Notes under the pieces: generated by a model
The model's database searches: none
Told to the model about the DNA's origin: nothing
The model's input: only the letters and a program-made list of their open reading frames with translations
In this document: piece by piece, positions 1,359 to 10,438 of the stretch
Layout: every line of letters starts with the position of its first letter
Numbering within the stretch: the first letter of the stretch is position 1
Assembly (NCBI RefSeq): GCF_024267655.1
Contig: NZ_CP100595.1
Span: 558,001 to 622,000 of the forward strand
Length of the DNA stretch: 64,000 nt
Direction of reading: 5' to 3'
Origin: Arcobacter roscoffensis
Lineage (GTDB): Bacteria; Campylobacterota; Campylobacteria; Campylobacterales; Arcobacteraceae
Program-made: the position numbers and the translations under genes

Positions 1359-1382
1359 AGATAAGGATTTTAATCCTTATCT
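1359..1382. terminator. Bidirectional hairpin between convergent genes
   Basis: A perfect 11-bp inverted repeat (arms AGATAAGGATT at 1359-1369 and AATCCTTATCT at 1372-1382) with a TT centre. The right arm overlaps the last codons of the minus-strand acyltransferase gene. On the plus strand it is followed at a short distance by CTTTTTC. It is placed to stop transcripts from both convergent genes; the U-tract is modest. Confidence 0.6.
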
Positions 1383-3082
1383 ATATATCTTTTTCTTGCG
1401 CTATCTTTTATTTTATCAACTTCAACTAAGATAAATCCATCAACACAATCAGCAAATTCAGGGTCAATATTAAAATCGCAAAATTTAACACCACCTTCTG
1501 ATGCGATATCAGAGTACTGTTTATAAAGTGTGGGTACTGCACAGTTCATATTTGATAGAGTAGATTTTAAAAGTTTAAAGTCAGCTCTTTTATCTTCTAA
1601 ATGAAAAACTTCTTTTACTTCATTTACACTATTTGAGTATTGATAAGGGATTTTTGCAGTTACTAAACTAGCTTTTGTTTTAAAATAATGTGAATAGTAA
1701 TAAACCATCATATCTTTTGCTGCTTTTGGAAAAGATGCACTCATAGATACAGGTCCAAACATATATTTTATATGTGGGTTCTTCTTAAGATAAGCTCCAA
1801 TTCCATACCATAGGTAATCTAAGGCTCTTGTTCCCCAGTATTTAGGTTGCACAAAACTTCTTCCAAGCTCAATAGAATTTTTTAAGTATGGAATCATATC
1901 TTCGTTGTAGTCAAATAGTTTATTTGAATAAAAACCTTTAACTCCTATATTTTTATAGATAAAATCAGAATTACCAATTCTATATGAACCAACTATTTCT
2001 AAATCATTTTTATCCCATAAAATAATATGTTGATAATATATATCAAACTTATCAGTATCTCTTTTTTTGTTGATACCCTCACCAACCTTTCTAAAAGATA
2101 TTTCTCTTAATCTTCCAAGCTCTTTTAATACAACAGAGTCTTCTGTGTAGTCATAAAGGTATATCTCTTTCCCATCTTTTGTTTCACCTATTAATTGAGA
2201 GCTTTTAAGCTCTGATAATATATCTGCTCTTCTTTGAGGGTGAGCAATTGCTGATTGTGTTTGAAAAAAAGATTTTTTTCCTTTTTTTAGTGCATATAAA
2301 TGCTTTCTATAAAGATTTACTAAAAACTTTTTATTTATTCCTTTTGGTAATATATTTTCATTAGGAATAATCTCTCCAATTTTGATATTAATTCTTTTTG
2401 ATTTCTTTTTAAACATCTCATTTGATAAAAGTAAAGTTGAAAAAGTTTTATTTAAAACAGATACTGTATAAAATGTTTTAGAATTTTTTGCATTTAAATA
2501 TATAGGAAGTATTGGTGAACCTGTATTTTGGGCAAAGTTTAAAAAACCTTTACTCCAAATAGGATCTTTTATACCTTTTGAAGTGGCACGACTAACTTCA
2601 CCTGCTGGGAAGATGATAATAGCCTCTTCATTATTTAAGGCATCATAGATGTTTTTAATATCTTTTTTAGATTGTCTAATTTTATAATTATCAATTGGAA
2701 TTAAAAGTGAGTTTAAAGCTTCAAATCCAACTAAAAAATCATTTGCAACAATTCTTACATCTTTTCTTACTTGTGAGATTAGTCTAAGTAAACATAGTGC
2801 GTCTAATCCACCTAAAGGATGGTTAGCAATAATTACTACTTTTCCTGAACTTGGAATGTTTTGTAAATCATTACTTGAAACAGTATAGTCAAAGTCAAAA
2901 TAGTCTAAAACAGCATCTACAAACTCAAAACCTTTTAAATGTTCATTTTGTGATAAGAACTGGTTAATCGAGTCTTCATGCACTATCTTTCTAGCTATTT
3001 TAAATAAAGATTTTTTTAAAAAGTTCTGTTTTTTATTTATATTAGGAAACTTTTTTTCTATCTCTTTTTGTACATCAATCAT
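1370..3082 (-). CDS. OlsF-like bifunctional acyltransferase (PlsC domain + GNAT/N-acyltransferase domain)
   Basis: A 570-aa two-domain protein. The N-terminal half is a lysophospholipid acyltransferase-like (PlsC) domain with NHPLGGLD at about residues 87-94 and FPAGEVSR at about 159-166. The C-terminal half (about 300-480) is the hemolysin/OlsB-type N-acyltransferase domain, seen from ELGRSFVQPKYWG and FGPVSMSASFP. This order is that of OlsF, a single-protein ornithine-lipid synthase in which the C-terminal domain makes lyso-ornithine lipid and the N-terminal domain O-acylates it. The spacing in the PlsC motif is H-x5-D, not the classic H-x4-D, as in the NHPLGGLD group. It is transcribed alone, away from a Pho-box-like promoter at 3100-3133. 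Ornithine lipids replace phospholipids under phosphate limitation in other bacteria, which fits. The product is inferred; another amine acyl lipid is possible. Confidence 0.72.
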   Translation of the reverse strand: MIDVQKEIEKKFPNINKKQNFLKKSLFKIARKIVHEDSINQFLSQNEHLKGFEFVDAVLDYFDFDYTVSSNDLQNIPSSGKVVIIANHPLGGLDALCLLRLISQVRKDVRIVANDFLVGFEALNSLLIPIDNYKIRQSKKDIKNIYDALNNEEAIIIFPAGEVSRATSKGIKDPIWSKGFLNFAQNTGSPILPIYLNAKNSKTFYTVSVLNKTFSTLLLSNEMFKKKSKRINIKIGEIIPNENILPKGINKKFLVNLYRKHLYALKKGKKSFFQTQSAIAHPQRRADILSELKSSQLIGETKDGKEIYLYDYTEDSVVLKELGRLREISFRKVGEGINKKRDTDKFDIYYQHIILWDKNDLEIVGSYRIGNSDFIYKNIGVKGFYSNKLFDYNEDMIPYLKNSIELGRSFVQPKYWGTRALDYLWYGIGAYLKKNPHIKYMFGPVSMSASFPKAAKDMMVYYYSHYFKTKASLVTAKIPYQYSNSVNEVKEVFHLEDKRADFKLLKSTLSNMNCAVPTLYKQYSDIASEGGVKFCDFNIDPEFADCVDGFILVEVDKIKDSARKRYIDKD

Positions 3083-3099: not shown

Positions 3100-3133
3100 A
3101 TTGTAGTTTCCTTTGATTACAAAAAGGTAACAG
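3100..3133 (-). promoter_or_regulatory. Pho-box-like promoter for the OlsF-like gene
   Basis: Read on the minus strand: CTGTTAC (3133-3127), then TTGTAAT (3122-3116) starting exactly 11 nt later, then 10 nt, then a -10 hexamer TACAAT (3105-3100). No -35 hexamer is needed in this layout because the activator site replaces it. Two further promoters in this window have the same half sites and the same distances (3162-3195 and 6579-6612). PhoB-type regulators bind direct repeats with an 11-nt period, so a phosphate regulator is the natural candidate. Confidence 0.65.
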
Positions 3134-3161
3134 TAACCTTTTTTAGTGACCATAAACAAAT

Positions 3162-3195
3162 TTGTTACTAAATTGTAATTTTAAGTCTTTATAAT
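3162..3195 (+). promoter_or_regulatory. Pho-box-like promoter for the cytochrome/NicO operon
   Basis: TTGTTAC (3162-3168) and TTGTAAT (3173-3179) are direct repeats with an 11-nt period. Ten nucleotides later comes a perfect -10 hexamer TATAAT (3190-3195). The start codon of the first operon gene lies 27 nt downstream with AGGA at 3213-3216. The pattern matches the divergent box at 3100-3133 and the one before the PhoX-like gene in both spacing and half-site sequence. Confidence 0.68.
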
Positions 3196-3222
3196 CACAA
3201 GATTTTATATGAGGATAAATTA

Positions 3223-4971
3223 ATGAATAAAAGAAATATACTTTTTACAAGTCTTTTTTTGCTTACAAATTATGGTTTTGCACAAGACTTAAAAAGTAAA
3301 AATTTATATAATAAAACAGCATATATTTCAAGTCAATGTTATACAAAAACAGTAAATGATTTAAATGAAAATATTTTACATAACTCTTGTTTCAGCTGTC
3401 ATACAAAAAATAAAGAACCAAACTTTACCTTAGCAGATGCAGATTTACAAGAGGCATATGATTTTCCATCTTCTGCTTTTAAAAACCCTTGGACTAATCT
3501 TTTTAAAGATAGAACTTATCAAACAAAAAGTATTTCTGATGAAGAAATATTAGCTTATGTGAAAGAAGATAATTATAAAAATAAAAAAGGAGAATTTGTT
3601 TTAAAGCCTAAACTTGAAAACATTTCAAAAGATTGGGACTTTAATAATAATGGTAAATGGGATGGATATATACCTGATGTAGCTTTTTCCTTTGATAGAG
3701 ATGGTTTTGATAAAAATAAAAAAGGAGAATATACAGGATGGAGAGCCTTTGCTTATTATCCTTTTCTAGGAACTTTTTGGCCGACTAATGGAAGTTTTGA
3801 TGATGTACTAATTAGGCTTCCTAAGAGTTTTTATTTGAATAAAAAGGCTTTGTTTGATAAGGAAATATACACTATAAATCTTGCAATAATAGAATCTTTA
3901 ATAAAGCAAAAAGATATTTTGATAGAGGAAGTAGATGAAAAAAAATATGGTGTTGATTTAAACCAAAATAATAGACTAGATTTAGCAAAAAATGTTGTTT
4001 TTAACTGGATGACACCTAAGTATGACTTAAAAACAGGAAAGCTAAAAGATTTTTCTATGTCTTATGTGGGAGAAGCAAAAAAGCTTTTAGAAAATGGAGA
4101 GCTTAATATTGCACCTGGTTTATATCCTGTTGGTACAGAGTTTGCACATACAGTAAGGTATCTTGATGTACAAAAAAATGAAGTTAAAATGGCTTCAAGA
4201 ATGAAAGAGTTTAGATATGCAAAGAAACATCATTGGAATAATTATACACAGCTTTTAAATTTAGGTTATGCAGAAATAAAAGAGAAACATGATTTTCCAG
4301 AAAGGGTTGATGTATATTTAGGGAACATGGAAACTGGACTTAGTAACAAAAGAGGTTGGCTTTATCAAGGTTTTATTGAAGATAATAAAGGTGACTTAAG
4401 ACCTCAAACTTATGAAGAAACACTTTTTTGTATGGGCTGTCATAGTAATATAGGAGCAACTGCTGATTCTACCTTTGTATTTCAAAGGAAGTTTGAAGGG
4501 CCTGATATGTCTTATGGTTGGTACCATTGGAGTCAAAGAGGTTTAAAAGGTGTAAAAGATAGAGTTTTAGATGATGGTCAAACAGAGTATGTTAGATATC
4601 TAAAGTTAAATAGTGCAGGGGATGAGTTTAGATCTAATGATGAAGTGATGAATAAGTTCTTTGTTAAAGATTGGGAAAAGGATATAGAAAATATTGAAAG
4701 AGATTTGATATCTAAATTAGAAAATCCAAAAATTGTTTTAAAGCAAGATTGGAAACTAAAAAAGAATGAAATACAGAAACTAAAAGAAGATATTACTCAT
4801 CTTATAATACCAAGTAAACAAAGAGCAATACAACTAAATAAAGCATATAAAGTGATAGTTGATGAACAAAGTTATATTTATGGTAGAGATACTCATGTAA
4901 AACCAGCAAATAATGTTCATAAAACTATAAAAGATGGTCAAATGACACATTTACAAAAGGTTCAAAAATGA
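3223..4971 (+). CDS. Secreted diheme c-type cytochrome-like protein, unknown role
   Basis: A 582-aa protein with a signal peptide (cleavage likely after about residue 20) and two c-heme motifs far apart, CFSCH at residues 56-60 and CMGCH at 403-407. Between them are two short Asp/Asn-rich calcium-loop-like stretches (DFNNNGKWDGY and DLNQNNRLD). The C-terminus is charged and helical. It should be periplasmic with two covalent hemes. I do not recognise a characterised family. It is the first gene of a tightly coupled operon: its stop overlaps the next ATG by 3 nt. The partners are a NicO-type transporter and secreted His-Pro proteins, suggesting a link to metal handling. The promoter is Pho-box-like. 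An electron-transfer or metal-redox role is inference. Confidence 0.75.
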   Translation: MNKRNILFTSLFLLTNYGFAQDLKSKNLYNKTAYISSQCYTKTVNDLNENILHNSCFSCHTKNKEPNFTLADADLQEAYDFPSSAFKNPWTNLFKDRTYQTKSISDEEILAYVKEDNYKNKKGEFVLKPKLENISKDWDFNNNGKWDGYIPDVAFSFDRDGFDKNKKGEYTGWRAFAYYPFLGTFWPTNGSFDDVLIRLPKSFYLNKKALFDKEIYTINLAIIESLIKQKDILIEEVDEKKYGVDLNQNNRLDLAKNVVFNWMTPKYDLKTGKLKDFSMSYVGEAKKLLENGELNIAPGLYPVGTEFAHTVRYLDVQKNEVKMASRMKEFRYAKKHHWNNYTQLLNLGYAEIKEKHDFPERVDVYLGNMETGLSNKRGWLYQGFIEDNKGDLRPQTYEETLFCMGCHSNIGATADSTFVFQRKFEGPDMSYGWYHWSQRGLKGVKDRVLDDGQTEYVRYLKLNSAGDEFRSNDEVMNKFFVKDWEKDIENIERDLISKLENPKIVLKQDWKLKKNEIQKLKEDITHLIIPSKQRAIQLNKAYKVIVDEQSYIYGRDTHVKPANNVHKTIKDGQMTHLQKVQK

Positions 4972-5699
4972 TAGAGTATTATGGAGGTTTTTTAAATTAT
5001 ATAGTTTCAAAACAGCAAGAGTTAAATTTACTTATATCTGATTATTTTGATAGATTAGATAGTGGTGAAAGTATGGTTTTCTTTTCTATTTTATTTGTTT
5101 CTTTTATTTATGGTTTAGTACATGCCTTAGGTCCAGGTCATGGAAAGATGGTAATTGCCAGTTACTTTTTAGCCAAAGAAGCAAAAATAAAAGAGGCTTT
5201 TAAAGCAGGTTTTTTAACTTCAATTATTCATACCATATCAGCTCTTTTAATCACTGGAGTTTTATATCTATTTTTTCAAAGAGCTGTAACAAAGCATTTT
5301 CAAGATATAAATGCCAATATGTATAAAATCTCAGCAGTGTTTATAATTTTAATTGCTTTGTATTTATTATATGAAGTAATAAAAGATAGAAATGAAGAAG
5401 AAAAGGTACAAAGACTAAAAAGTAAAAATTTACTAGCTGTTAGTTTATCTATTGGAATAGTACCTTGCCCAGGTGTTATGACAATAGTTCTATTTTCAAT
5501 GATTCTTGGATATATAAATTTAGGAATTTTAAGTGCTATAACAATGAGTATTGGTATGGGACTTACTATATCATTAGCTGCAATATTAGCAACACAGGTT
5601 AAAAATAAAAGATTTAGTAAGTATAAGTATTTTATGAATATTTTAACTTATGGTGCAATTGTTTTATTAATCTCTCTAGGAGTATTTTTATTAGTATGA
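4968..5699 (+). CDS. NicO/RcnA-family metal transporter
   Basis: A 243-aa polytopic membrane protein of the nickel/cobalt exporter (NicO, RcnA-like) family. The first hydrophobic block carries HALGPGHGK at about residues 52-60, the family hallmark. A conserved His follows at about residue 88 and a PCPG motif at 166-169. A charged loop around 140-152 separates two groups of helices. Members move Ni2+, Co2+ or related ions across the inner membrane, and are often encoded beside DUF1007 proteins, as here. The start ATG overlaps the previous stop (ATGA), so translation is probably coupled. Which metal, and whether it is export or import, cannot be decided from the sequence. Confidence 0.82.
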   Translation: MIEYYGGFLNYIVSKQQELNLLISDYFDRLDSGESMVFFSILFVSFIYGLVHALGPGHGKMVIASYFLAKEAKIKEAFKAGFLTSIIHTISALLITGVLYLFFQRAVTKHFQDINANMYKISAVFIILIALYLLYEVIKDRNEEEKVQRLKSKNLLAVSLSIGIVPCPGVMTIVLFSMILGYINLGILSAITMSIGMGLTISLAAILATQVKNKRFSKYKYFMNILTYGAIVLLISLGVFLLV

Positions 5700-6184
5700 A
5701 AAAGATTTTAATTATAATAGTTTTTTTTATTGGTATTGGTTTAAATGCTCATCCTCACTTTTTTATAGATTCAAACATCTCTTTTGAAAAAGGAAAAATA
5801 AAAAACCAATGGTTATTTGATCGGCTTAATTCAAGAGTTTTGCTTTTTGATTTTGACAAAAATTCAAATAAAAAATTTGATGAAGAAGAAAAACAAGAGT
5901 TTATAGAAACACATTTTAAAACACTAGAGCAAAATAACTATAATATCTTTTTATCAGATGAAAAAGAGTATGAAATTAAGCCTTCAAATATTGATGTTAA
6001 ATTTCAAGAAAGAAGAGTTTCTCTTACTTTTGATATTGATGTTGATTTAAGTAATGAGTTTACAATGTGTACAATGGATGAAAAGATTTATATGGCATTT
6101 AAGTTAAATGAAGTGAGTTCTTCTAATAAATTAGATGTTCAGAAAAGTGAATATGATTTTTGTTTAGGGGTTTCAAGTGAATAA
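5696..6184 (+). CDS. DUF1007-family secreted protein with N-terminal His-Pro-His
   Basis: A 162-aa protein. Residues 1-18 form a signal peptide, and the predicted mature protein begins HPHFFIDSNISF, the signature of DUF1007 proteins that accompany NicO transporters. It contains an EF-hand-like loop (DFDKNSNKKFDEEE) at about residues 54-67. It overlaps the transporter gene by 4 nt. A mature N-terminal histidine followed by a second histidine is a plausible metal site. Role as periplasmic metal partner of the transporter is inferred from gene pairing. Confidence 0.75.
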   Translation: MKKILIIIVFFIGIGLNAHPHFFIDSNISFEKGKIKNQWLFDRLNSRVLLFDFDKNSNKKFDEEEKQEFIETHFKTLEQNNYNIFLSDEKEYEIKPSNIDVKFQERRVSLTFDIDVDLSNEFTMCTMDEKIYMAFKLNEVSSSNKLDVQKSEYDFCLGVSSE

Positions 6185-6491
6185 AATTTTAATAATATGT
6201 AGTTTTCTACTTAGTTCTAGTATAGCTCATCCCGTTAGTTATACAATAGATTTAGATGTTTCTTATGATATAAATGTGCAAAAAGCAAAAATTATTTGTA
6301 AAAGTAACAGTAAAAATAAATGTGGTTTATATAATTACCATCTAGTAGATGAAAATGATAAGATAATACTAACTAAAAGGTATCCATTTTTAAAAAAACA
6401 ATCTTTAGTTAAGCTCTCAAGTAAGCCTTTTAAGCTTGTTTTCTTTTTACGAAAGACTCCTGAACATAATTATATAAAATTATTTGAATAG
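6177..6491 (+). CDS. Small secreted protein, mature N-terminus His-Pro
   Basis: A 104-aa protein starting at GTG, overlapping the previous gene by 8 nt. A signal peptide ends at about residue 17 and the mature chain begins HPVSYTIDLDVSY, echoing the HPHFFIDSNISF start of the preceding DUF1007 protein. Two cysteines (about residues 42 and 49) flank a Lys/Asn-rich turn. No known family was recognised; it may be a diverged short relative of the DUF1007 N-terminal region. It is the last gene of the operon. Confidence 0.62.
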   Translation: MNKILIICSFLLSSSIAHPVSYTIDLDVSYDINVQKAKIICKSNSKNKCGLYNYHLVDENDKIILTKRYPFLKKQSLVKLSSKPFKLVFFLRKTPEHNYIKLFE

Positions 6492-6578
6492 AACCTACTT
6501 TAGCTCATAAAAAGAAATAAATATCTAATACAAAATAATATTTTAAATGAGATAGCCATTTTGATAACCATTATTTTT

Positions 6579-6612
6579 TTGTAACTATCTTGTAATTTTT
6601 CTTTATTAAAAT
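6579..6612 (+). promoter_or_regulatory. Pho-box-like promoter for the PhoX-like gene
   Basis: TTGTAAC (6579-6585) and TTGTAAT (6590-6596) are direct repeats 11 nt apart. Ten nucleotides later is a -10 hexamer TAAAAT (6607-6612). Half sites, period and distance to the -10 are the same as at 3162-3195. The downstream gene encodes a PhoX-type phosphatase, which links this motif to phosphate control. Confidence 0.72.
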
Positions 6613-6664: not shown

Positions 6665-9600
6665 ATGAAAAGAAATTATTTGAGAATAAGTTTTGTTGCT
6701 TCAGCTATTTTAGCCTCTATTACTTTTATTGGATGTGGTAGTTCTTCATCTTCACAAACATCAACTTCACAAGGTTCAACTGGAACATTAAGTCTAAATC
6801 CGAATTTGGCAAATATTGATTATACATGTGGAGATACAAGTGGTACTACAAACTCTAATGGAGAGTATACGTATAAAGATGGTGAAACTTGTACTTTTAC
6901 CATAGGAGGAAAAAAATTAACTGCAACTCCTAGTTCAAAACTTACTATTGCTTCAATTGCTGAGCAAAATGAAGATGTTTCTAGTGAAGCATTATCAGCA
7001 TTTATTATTGCAAAAATGAGTAAAAAAACTGGAAAAGATTATGATATTAATAATCTTCCAGAAACTTTTGAGTTACCTGAAGATATTGAAGGTAGTTCTT
7101 CTGATGCATTAGATTTTTCATCTATTGAGAAATTATCTGAAAAATTAGATGATGCAGATATAAAAGAAAAAATCAAAAAAATCAAAATTGATGTGAGCAA
7201 AAAGTTTGCTAATAAAGTAGATGTAAAATTTAAAGAAATACAAACACCTACAACAGATGCTAAAAAAACAACTAGACAAGCTTCTTCTGAAGTTGTAATA
7301 AATGGTAAAACTCAAAATATATCATATAAAACAATTATGGCTACAGGTGATAGTAATAATGGTGAAGTATTTGGATTATCAAAAGATTATATGGACGAAA
7401 CAATTACTTTTAGTGGTGGAACTGTAGATGATGGCTCACCATATATTTGTAATGGTACAAATAGTGGAGTTGGTTCGGGACTTGATTATACATCATTTTT
7501 AAATAAAGATGGAAATTTATATATGGTATCACAGTTTGAGTGTCAAGTTGGCTCTATGTATATGGTAGAGTTAGAGCAAAATGAGCAAACGGGTGAATTA
7601 AGTGCAAAAGAAAATAGTATGAAGTTCATCTCACAAAAAGATGAATTTGGTGGCTTTGTTCATTGTGCAGGTCAAAAAACACCATGGGAATCTCACTTAG
7701 GTTCAGAAGAGTATGAACCAGACGCTAAAGCTGTGGAGCAAGGTGCAGATTCAGTTACTGGATTAACTGGAAACAAGTATTATGATGAGGTTGCGAAATT
7801 CTGGAAAGGTGATGCTACTAAAATGTCGCCATATTACTATGGTTGGACTCCTGAAGTAAAAATCACTGATGATGGTGAAGCTGATTATACAAAACACTAC
7901 TCAATGGGAAGAATGTCTCATGAGTTAGCATATGTTATGCCTGATAATAAAACAGTATATTTATCAGATGATGGAACAAATGTTGGATTATTTATGTTTG
8001 TTGCAGATAAAGAAAAGGATTTAAGTGCAGGTACATTATATGCTGCAAAATGGAATCAAACTTCAGAAGTTGGAGTTGGTGCTGGTGAGGCTGATATTAC
8101 TTGGGTTAACTTGGGTCATGCAACAGATAGTGAAATTAGAGAGTATTTAGATAAAGATGGAAATATTGCAACAAATGATGCAGTTAAATTCTCAGATATT
8201 TTTGATTCAGTATCTGGAGATACAAATGCAGGTACTTGTCCAACTGGTTATAAAGCAACTAACACAAGTGCTGGTTTTGAGTGTTTAAATTTAAAAGAAG
8301 GTATGGAAAAAGCTGCTTCAAGATTAGAGTCAAGAAGATATGCTGCTTATATGGGAGCAACAACTGAGTTTAGAAAAGAAGAGGGTATTACTTTTGATAA
8401 AAATGCAGGTAAACTTTATGTTGCAATGAGTTCTGTTGAAAGAGGAATGGAAGATAACAAAAAAAGTGAAGTAGCTAATACTAAATATGATATTGGTGGA
8501 AACAATGATATTAAAGTTGAATATAATCAATGTGGGGCTGTTTACTCTTTAGATGTAGATACAGAAATTGCTAAAGATACTGCTGATACTACAATTAACT
8601 CTGAGTATGTAGTAAAAAATATGAATGCAGTAATAAGTGGAACACCAACTACTTATGCAGATGGTTCTGTTTATGCTAACAATACTTGTGATGTAAATGG
8701 TATTTCAAATCCTGATAATGTTACTTTCTTAGAGAACTCTGATATTTTAATGATTGGAGAGGATACAGGTAAACATGAAAATAATGCTGTATGGGCATAC
8801 AATGTAAAAACTAAAGAGTTAACTAGAACATTCACAACTCCACTTGATGCTGAAACAACTTCACCATTTTGGTATAGTAATTTAGCAAATGGTTATGGAT
8901 ACTTATCAGTTGTAACACAACACCCTATGAAGTCTCAATCTTCTACACTTGCTCAAAAACAATCAACTATTGGATATGTAGGACCATTTAAAAACTTAGA
9001 TGAGTTAAAAGAATCAAATAAATTAAACTCTTTTGAAAAAGTAGCAACACTAACTACATCTATAGAAGGTGGAAGTGAGATTGTAGCTTTTGATAGTAAT
9101 ACAAATAGAATGTTTACTACAAATGGAGCTAATAATGCTTTAGATATTAATACAGTTTCTTATGATGAAGATAAAAAAACAATGAGCTTAACATCTTATA
9201 AATCAGTTGACTTATTAATTTATGGAAATGGTGTAAACTCAGTTGCTGTTGCAAGTGGAAAAGTTGCAGTAGCAGTTGAAAAAGTAGATTCACAAGATTC
9301 ATCAAAACAAGTAAAAGGTTCTGTTGTTGTATTTGATACAGCAGGAGAACATATTCAAACTATTGAAGTTGGGTATTTACCAGATATGCTTACATTTAAC
9401 GAAGATGCTTCAAAAATCATTGTAGCAAATGAGGGTGAGCCAAATAGTGACTACTCTTATGATCCAAAGGGTTCAGTTGGAATTATTGATGTTAATAATA
9501 ACTACTCATATACTGATTTAACTTTTGATGGTATTGAAATTCCAAGTGATGTAGTATTAAAAGATGGTGTTGATGCTTCTTTAGATTTAGAGCCTGAATA

Positions 9601-10438
9601 TGTAACTGTTTCAGGAAATAAAGCTTATGTAACACTTCAAGAAAACAATGCTTTAGCTATTGTTGATATTAGTTCTAAAAAGATTGACTCAGTTGTTACT
9701 TTAGGATTTAAAGACCACTCAAAAGAAGAAAATGCAATAGATATTGAAGAAGAAGGTATTACAATGCTTAAAACTTATAAAGGTTTATATGGTATGTATC
9801 AACCAGATTCAATTGCTTCTTATGAAATAGGTTCTAAAACATATTTAGTAACTGCAAATGAAGGCGATGGAAGAGAGTATGGTGAGTATTCTAATGAAAG
9901 TAAAATCAAAAAATTACCTTTAGACTCTTCTATTTCTTTTGCTTATGAAAACGAAAATGATTTAAAAGTTAATAATGAATTAGGTAAAAATAGTTCAGGT
10001 GATTATGAAAAATTATATACTTTTGGTGCTAGATCATTCTCTATTTGGGATGAAGAAGGTACTTTAGTATTTGATAGTAAAAATGAACTATCAAAATTAA
10101 CTGCTAAGTTTATGCCAAATTTATTTAATCAAGATGATGGAGAAAAAGATGGAAGAAGTGGAAACAAAGGTGTTGAGCCAGAAGCTTTAGCTGTTGGTGA
10201 AGTAAATGATAGAACATATGCTTTTGTTGGTTTAGAAAGACAAAATGCAATTGTAATCTATGATATTACGGATGCACAAAACTCTAAATTTGTTAAATAT
10301 ATTAAATCAGATAAAAATGAAAACATTTCACCAGAGGGCATGAAGTTTGTAAAAGCTGAAGATAGCCTTACAGGTAATGCTTTACTTATGGTAGCATATG
10401 AAGTAAGTGGTTCTACTGCTATTTATGAAATCAAATAA
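6665..10438 (+). CDS. PhoX-like (DUF839) lipoprotein fused to a choice-of-anchor-I-type domain
   Basis: A 1257-aa lipoprotein: lipobox FIGC puts the acylated Cys at residue 24, followed by a Ser/Thr-rich linker. Residues about 215-760 resemble PhoX/DUF839 alkaline phosphatases (GRMSHELAYVMP, TVYLSDDGTN, GLFMFVADKEKDLSAGTLY). PhoX enzymes are Ca2+/Fe3+-dependent phosphomonoesterases at the cell surface or in the periplasm. Residues about 790-1255 resemble the propeller-like choice-of-anchor-I domain (IVANEGEPNSDYSYDPKG, VTANEGDGREYGEY, GVEPEALAVGEVNDRTYAFVGLER). The two are usually separate proteins, so the fusion is notable. SD AAAGGA precedes ATG. A Pho-box-like promoter lies at 6579-6612. 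Activity is inferred from family; metal ligands were not checked individually. Confidence 0.8.
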   Translation: MKRNYLRISFVASAILASITFIGCGSSSSSQTSTSQGSTGTLSLNPNLANIDYTCGDTSGTTNSNGEYTYKDGETCTFTIGGKKLTATPSSKLTIASIAEQNEDVSSEALSAFIIAKMSKKTGKDYDINNLPETFELPEDIEGSSSDALDFSSIEKLSEKLDDADIKEKIKKIKIDVSKKFANKVDVKFKEIQTPTTDAKKTTRQASSEVVINGKTQNISYKTIMATGDSNNGEVFGLSKDYMDETITFSGGTVDDGSPYICNGTNSGVGSGLDYTSFLNKDGNLYMVSQFECQVGSMYMVELEQNEQTGELSAKENSMKFISQKDEFGGFVHCAGQKTPWESHLGSEEYEPDAKAVEQGADSVTGLTGNKYYDEVAKFWKGDATKMSPYYYGWTPEVKITDDGEADYTKHYSMGRMSHELAYVMPDNKTVYLSDDGTNVGLFMFVADKEKDLSAGTLYAAKWNQTSEVGVGAGEADITWVNLGHATDSEIREYLDKDGNIATNDAVKFSDIFDSVSGDTNAGTCPTGYKATNTSAGFECLNLKEGMEKAASRLESRRYAAYMGATTEFRKEEGITFDKNAGKLYVAMSSVERGMEDNKKSEVANTKYDIGGNNDIKVEYNQCGAVYSLDVDTEIAKDTADTTINSEYVVKNMNAVISGTPTTYADGSVYANNTCDVNGISNPDNVTFLENSDILMIGEDTGKHENNAVWAYNVKTKELTRTFTTPLDAETTSPFWYSNLANGYGYLSVVTQHPMKSQSSTLAQKQSTIGYVGPFKNLDELKESNKLNSFEKVATLTTSIEGGSEIVAFDSNTNRMFTTNGANNALDINTVSYDEDKKTMSLTSYKSVDLLIYGNGVNSVAVASGKVAVAVEKVDSQDSSKQVKGSVVVFDTAGEHIQTIEVGYLPDMLTFNEDASKIIVANEGEPNSDYSYDPKGSVGIIDVNNNYSYTDLTFDGIEIPSDVVLKDGVDASLDLEPEYVTVSGNKAYVTLQENNALAIVDISSKKIDSVVTLGFKDHSKEENAIDIEEEGITMLKTYKGLYGMYQPDSIASYEIGSKTYLVTANEGDGREYGEYSNESKIKKLPLDSSISFAYENENDLKVNNELGKNSSGDYEKLYTFGARSFSIWDEEGTLVFDSKNELSKLTAKFMPNLFNQDDGEKDGRSGNKGVEPEALAVGEVNDRTYAFVGLERQNAIVIYDITDAQNSKFVKYIKSDKNENISPEGMKFVKAEDSLTGNALLMVAYEVSGSTAIYEIK

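Follow-up and report, generated by a model that had tools for sequence, protein, structure and literature searches.

Conserved promoter sites of rigid geometry point to a genome-wide phosphate-starvation regulon in Arcobacter roscoffensis and its relatives

Three promoters within a 64-kb stretch of the Arcobacter roscoffensis genome share a pair of short direct repeats and a -10 hexamer, and they raise the question of whether a PhoB-type regulator controls an ornithine lipid synthase, a cytochrome operon and a PhoX-like protein together. The stretch (hereafter the window) covers positions 558001-622000 of the 3.15-Mb single-contig genome; the sites and genes below are numbered from its first letter.

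1370..3082, minus strand: olsF, bifunctional ornithine lipid synthase, 570 aa (NCBIfam NF052615, 837 bits, cut-off 620, residues 1-567)
3100..3133, minus strand: probable Pho box and -10 of olsF (half sites CTGTTAC 3133-3127 and TTGTAAT 3122-3116; -10 TACAAT 3105-3100)
3162..3195, plus strand: probable Pho box and -10 of the cytochrome operon (half sites 3162-3168 and 3173-3179; -10 TATAAT 3190-3195)
3223..4971, plus strand: two-CXXCH haem protein (C56, C403), 582 aa, probably exported (Pfam PF16694, 25.8 bits, cut-off 27)
4968..5699, plus strand: NicO-family metal transporter, ZevB-like (PF03824, 74.6 bits)
5696..6184, plus strand: DUF1007 protein, ZevA-like (PF06226, 72.6 bits)
6177..6491, plus strand: 104-aa product of the last gene in the cytochrome operon, no family match, kept after DUF1007 in relatives
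6579..6612, plus strand: probable Pho box and -10 of the PhoX-like gene (half sites 6579-6585 and 6590-6596; -10 TAAAAT 6607-6612)
6665..10438, plus strand: probable lipoprotein, 1257 aa, with an N-terminal PhoX-type phosphatase domain and a C-terminal choice-of-anchor I domain (PF22494, 270.6 bits)

Each of the three 34-nt sites consists of two 7-nt half sites arranged as direct repeats with an 11-nt period, and a -10 hexamer begins exactly 10 nt beyond them, just as the initial annotation had described. They read CTGTTAC-CTTT-TTGTAAT-N10-TACAAT before olsF (3133-3100, minus strand), TTGTTAC-TAAA-TTGTAAT-N10-TATAAT before the cytochrome operon (3162-3195, plus strand) and TTGTAAC-TATC-TTGTAAT-N10-TAAAAT before the PhoX-like gene (6579-6612, plus strand). 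One detail needed amendment: the consensus first proposed ended in TAWAAT, which mismatches its own first site (TACAAT). With up to three mismatches allowed, the full pattern has three matches in the 64 kb, where shuffles lead to an expectation of 0.48 and reached three in 0 of 100 cases, and the reported lack of a fourth copy is correct for the window at this threshold. A mononucleotide model predicts about 7e-5 strict matches per window, a figure that is biased by the pattern having been defined on these same sites; the unbiased tests are those in the rest of the genome and in relatives. Half-site pairs alone, at one mismatch, were no commoner in the window than in its shuffles. What rises above chance in the window is a pair of half sites followed by a -10 at a fixed distance.

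The rest of the genome does not bear out the description of the regulon as local. A relaxed exact pattern has six matches genome-wide, three of them in the window, while the others precede a PlcP-like metallophosphoesterase gene followed by a patatin gene, a gene for a PhoH-type PIN-ATPase, and a small reading frame. When mismatches are allowed, there are more matches, including ones upstream of pstC and phnF. The pst region lies on one strand in the order pstS, a gene for an EAL protein, pstC-pstA-pstB-phoU, a gene for a 125-aa membrane protein, phoB and phoR, with a box of identical geometry 69 nt before pstS and 65 nt before pstC. The phnF operon (C-P lyase), also preceded by a box, includes phnC, D, E, H, a PhnK-like gene, M and N. 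The enrichment before phosphate genes on which the initial annotation had staked its reading is thus found, and the interpretation of the sites as Pho boxes is supported rather than refuted.

At up to two mismatches, the genome contains 37 matches against 19 for the reversed control. Because the control is about half as frequent, weak single matches were disbelieved unless conservation or a phosphate gene backed them, and matches inside genes, such as that at 2226980 (L035), were treated as chance. We also left out a box-like site at a PPK2 gene pair (L036), which recurs with one mismatch in 22 of 30 relatives: it lies within the 3' end of the preceding coding sequence, where it is translated in frame (D-C-Y-Q-T-V-N-K-F-G-Y-N), so protein conservation can explain its recurrence. 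At a sulfide-quinone-oxidoreductase-type gene (L034; genome C1:255221-255254), a box with one mismatch and correct spacing was excluded from the count; we know of no link between this gene and phosphate.

Relatives of olsF are found in Arcobacter, Aliarcobacter, Poseidonibacter and Halarcobacter records and, further off, in Sulfurovum, and of 18 named relatives, 17 have the box at a distance of 51-68 nt upstream of olsF and the last has a degenerate copy. In the family as a whole (104 genomes), strict matches number 51, compared with one for the reversed control. Most of the 29 strict-match loci that were fetched precede pst, olsF, cytochrome, PhoX, PhoU, PlcP-like, GDPD, PhoH or PhnN-like genes. 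Counting per gene, with up to three mismatches and within 110 nt upstream, we found the box before 25 of 26 olsF, 28 of 30 pstC, 20 of 26 pstS, 16 of 24 PlcP-like, 9 of 15 cytochrome and all four PhoX-like genes; dinucleotide shuffles averaged 0-0.1, and unrelated genes gave 1 in 115, that one a 5'-nucleotidase gene. In several lower-scoring pstS promoters, both half sites can still be recognised by eye. A recognisable box is missing before some cytochrome and PlcP-like genes, and operon-internal cytochrome genes have no box of their own; cytochrome orthologues that start a transcription unit have one upstream with at most one mismatch. The genes for the PhoX-like protein and the cytochrome stand in other orders between olsF and the neighbouring DUF445 gene in several relatives, and the boxes move along with them. 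The promoters in relatives, a comparison that the initial annotation had proposed, keep the box before olsF, pst, cytochrome and PhoX-like orthologues. In the Sulfurovum olsF boxes (L019-L021), the second half site reads ATGAAAC, possibly an intermediate towards the box of Campylobacter jejuni PhosR, which is said to be made of GTTTC repeats (GAAAC-N6-GAAAC on the other strand) and to differ from the Arcobacter box by one base per half site.

The distance to the -10 is as constant as the repeats themselves. We selected 131 upstream regions by their half sites, leaving the -10 unused, so that they serve as an independent test of the geometry: 127 have TANNNT exactly 10 nt past the second half site, and the next commonest distance accounts for 18. 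Some of the loci overlap, so the regions are not all independent. Base frequencies in 88 sites are approximately NTGTAAY-YAWW-TTGTAAY-YAW-N7-TANAAT, and TTGTAAY-N4-TTGTAAY-N10-TANAAT provides a usable model of phosphate-starvation promoters for the Arcobacter family and beyond. Our search of the open-access literature found no paper defining such a Pho-box promoter model for Arcobacter. Order-wide, the strict pattern occurs in 71 of 399 genomes from many families, with one match for the reversed control, and is nearly absent from two families (none seen in f13, one genome in f10), which we guess may be those of Campylobacter and Helicobacter. At PlcP-like and PhoH-like genes (L006, L005, L112), only 6-7 nt lie between the end of the -10 hexamer and the start codon, a distance so short that leaderless Pho transcripts are predicted.

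The genes behind the three sites differ in how firmly they can be named. The ornithine lipid synthase proposed for the first is confirmed by a full-length match above the curated cut-off. For the PhoX-like protein, Pfam shows choice-of-anchor I only and no PhoX-type domain up to an E value of 2; the PhoX identity is supported by a profile match to 4amf/3zwu (E 1.7e-6), in which the C, EE, GRxxHE and second-half E motifs align, and by the predicted fold of the N-terminal part (Foldseek E 3.3e-13, probability 1.00, in a model of moderate confidence with a mean pLDDT of 67). Its signal is of the lipoprotein type, with an invariant G23-C24. In the cytochrome, both CXXCH motifs are invariant in 25 homologues. 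PDB sequence searches with it returned nothing useful. PF16694, a P460-type domain, falls below its cut-off (25.8 of 27 bits), and 14 of the 15 structural matches listed are P460 or c'-beta proteins at Z 4.1-6.7, none reaching 8, with a best Foldseek E of 0.39; the protein probably carries a P460/c'-beta-like domain, given these modest scores. It is present in 21 of 104 family genomes, in nearly all of which its locus adjoins the PhoX-like gene, olsF, the NicO module or its own paralogue, with L083 as an unclear case.

The cytochrome, NicO, DUF1007 and 104-aa genes (3223-6491) overlap by a few bases, and their order is kept in relatives. The unit may be a metal-import module under phosphate control. 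Its DUF1007 and NicO members, both above their Pfam cut-offs, belong to what we take to be the families of ZevA and ZevB. ZevAB of Haemophilus influenzae is a zinc system (PMC3872050), whereas here the DUF1007/NicO pair stands in a Pho-box operon behind a cytochrome and zinc transport is putative.

The candidate regulator is encoded after pstCAB-phoU, together with a PhoR-like partner. Its best model is PhoB (L057:4164-4838; TIGR02154, 176.6 bits), below the NCBIfam cut-off of 296.2, and that of the partner is PhoR (TIGR02966, 138.5 bits), also below cut-off; because of the low model score, we take the identity of PhoB from its operon context. The 125-aa membrane protein between phoU and phoB (L057:4869-5243) is also kept in L110 and L125. 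Between pstS and pstC lies the EAL-domain gene (c-di-GMP phosphodiesterase-like; L057:8902-10635), which in two relatives (L102, L104) has a strict Pho box directly upstream, and this placement suggests that c-di-GMP may be under phosphate control.

Taken together, the three sites are very probably Pho boxes of a genome-wide phosphate-starvation regulon, for which we infer PhoB binding and dependence on phosphate. When phosphate is scarce, the PhoB-type regulator would bind both half sites head to tail, take the place of a -35 element and recruit RNA polymerase to the -10 exactly 10 nt downstream. Ornithine-lipid synthesis, which would save phospholipid phosphate, would then be switched on, along with the PhoX-type phosphatase and the two-haem cytochrome with its metal-transport module. 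The same regulon would include pstS, pstCAB-phoU-phoB-phoR, the phn C-P lyase operon and the PlcP-like/patatin operon.

In this design the regulon resembles that of Escherichia coli PhoB. Published Pho boxes, among them the CTGTCAT-type box of E. coli, have two 7-nt direct repeats 4 nt apart, which PhoB binds head to tail with an 11-nt period (PMC4415409), and a strict spacing to the core promoter (PMC10294691); E. coli targets likewise include pst and phosphonate genes (PMC4415409, PMC10294691). In contrast, the half site here is TTGTAAY, and the regulon adds olsF, the PlcP-like gene, a choice-of-anchor-I PhoX and the cytochrome operon. Within the same phylum, the PhosS/PhosR regulon of C. 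jejuni controls phoX and pst (PMC3197622). Marine heterotrophic bacteria remodel their lipids with PlcP, and their PlcP and non-phosphorus lipid synthesis genes have putative Pho boxes (PMC4796936), whereas the aminolipid here would come from OlsF, and the PlcP-like gene is assigned by family models only to the calcineurin-type phosphoesterases, below the LpxH cut-off.

Binding to 11-nt direct repeats is a mode common to OmpR-family regulators. A different member of that family might own these sites, with the phosphate genes as shared targets, and the PhoB-like protein does score under the cut-off of the PhoB model. However, the box precedes the very operon that encodes the PhoB-like/PhoR-like pair with pstCAB-phoU, as autoregulation predicts, and phosphate genes make up the overwhelming majority of the conserved targets; we consider another regulator highly improbable. 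Chance likeness of AT-rich promoters with a good -10 has a vanishing probability. The half sites are AT-rich, the window is about 28% GC and paired half sites alone do not exceed its shuffles, but the cross-genome controls have already refuted this reading, with 51 matches to 1, a single hit in 115 unrelated genes and the 10-nt spacing in 127 of 131 regions.

Just 28 nt separate the box of olsF from that of the divergently transcribed and uncharacterised cytochrome. The cytochrome box could be a mere by-product of the olsF promoter, with no phosphate role for the cytochrome itself. Against this, in three relatives (L074, L075, L077) the cytochrome gene is not directly next to olsF and has a box and a correctly oriented -10 of its own, and the genes adjoining the cytochrome are, as described above, phosphate genes, the NicO module or a paralogue. 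A by-product is thereby very unlikely. A Pho box serving the cytochrome leaves room for a more specific proposal, in which the two-haem P460-like protein would be a redox enzyme of phosphorus acquisition that, for example, oxidises a reduced phosphorus compound or reductively frees iron-bound phosphate, with metal supplied by its NicO/DUF1007 partners; as it stands, this is an unlikely, speculative role.

PiT-family genes present a different arrangement. In A. roscoffensis (L065 2714-2790; genome C1:79240-79285) and in 17 of 30 genomes examined (L250-L279), the box is inverted with respect to the gene; it follows a -10-like element and lies about 28 nt upstream of the start codon. PhoB activates or represses depending on the position of its site (PMC10294691). 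Because of this, and since the box lies between the -10 and the start, the low-affinity PiT-family transporter is predicted to be repressed at low phosphate; family models for its substrate are compatible with phosphate or sulfate.

A classical phosphate regulon, real and conserved, is thus well supported in a little-studied group of bacteria, by a mechanism that is not new. What looks new is the box of the Arcobacter-family group, the antisense box of the PiT genes and the place of the operon for the cytochrome and metal transport among the members. In Arcobacter-family bacteria the regulon would tie lipid remodelling to PhoX, the use of phosphonates and the control of PiT, and it nominates an uncharacterised cytochrome as a possible part of their phosphorus acquisition.
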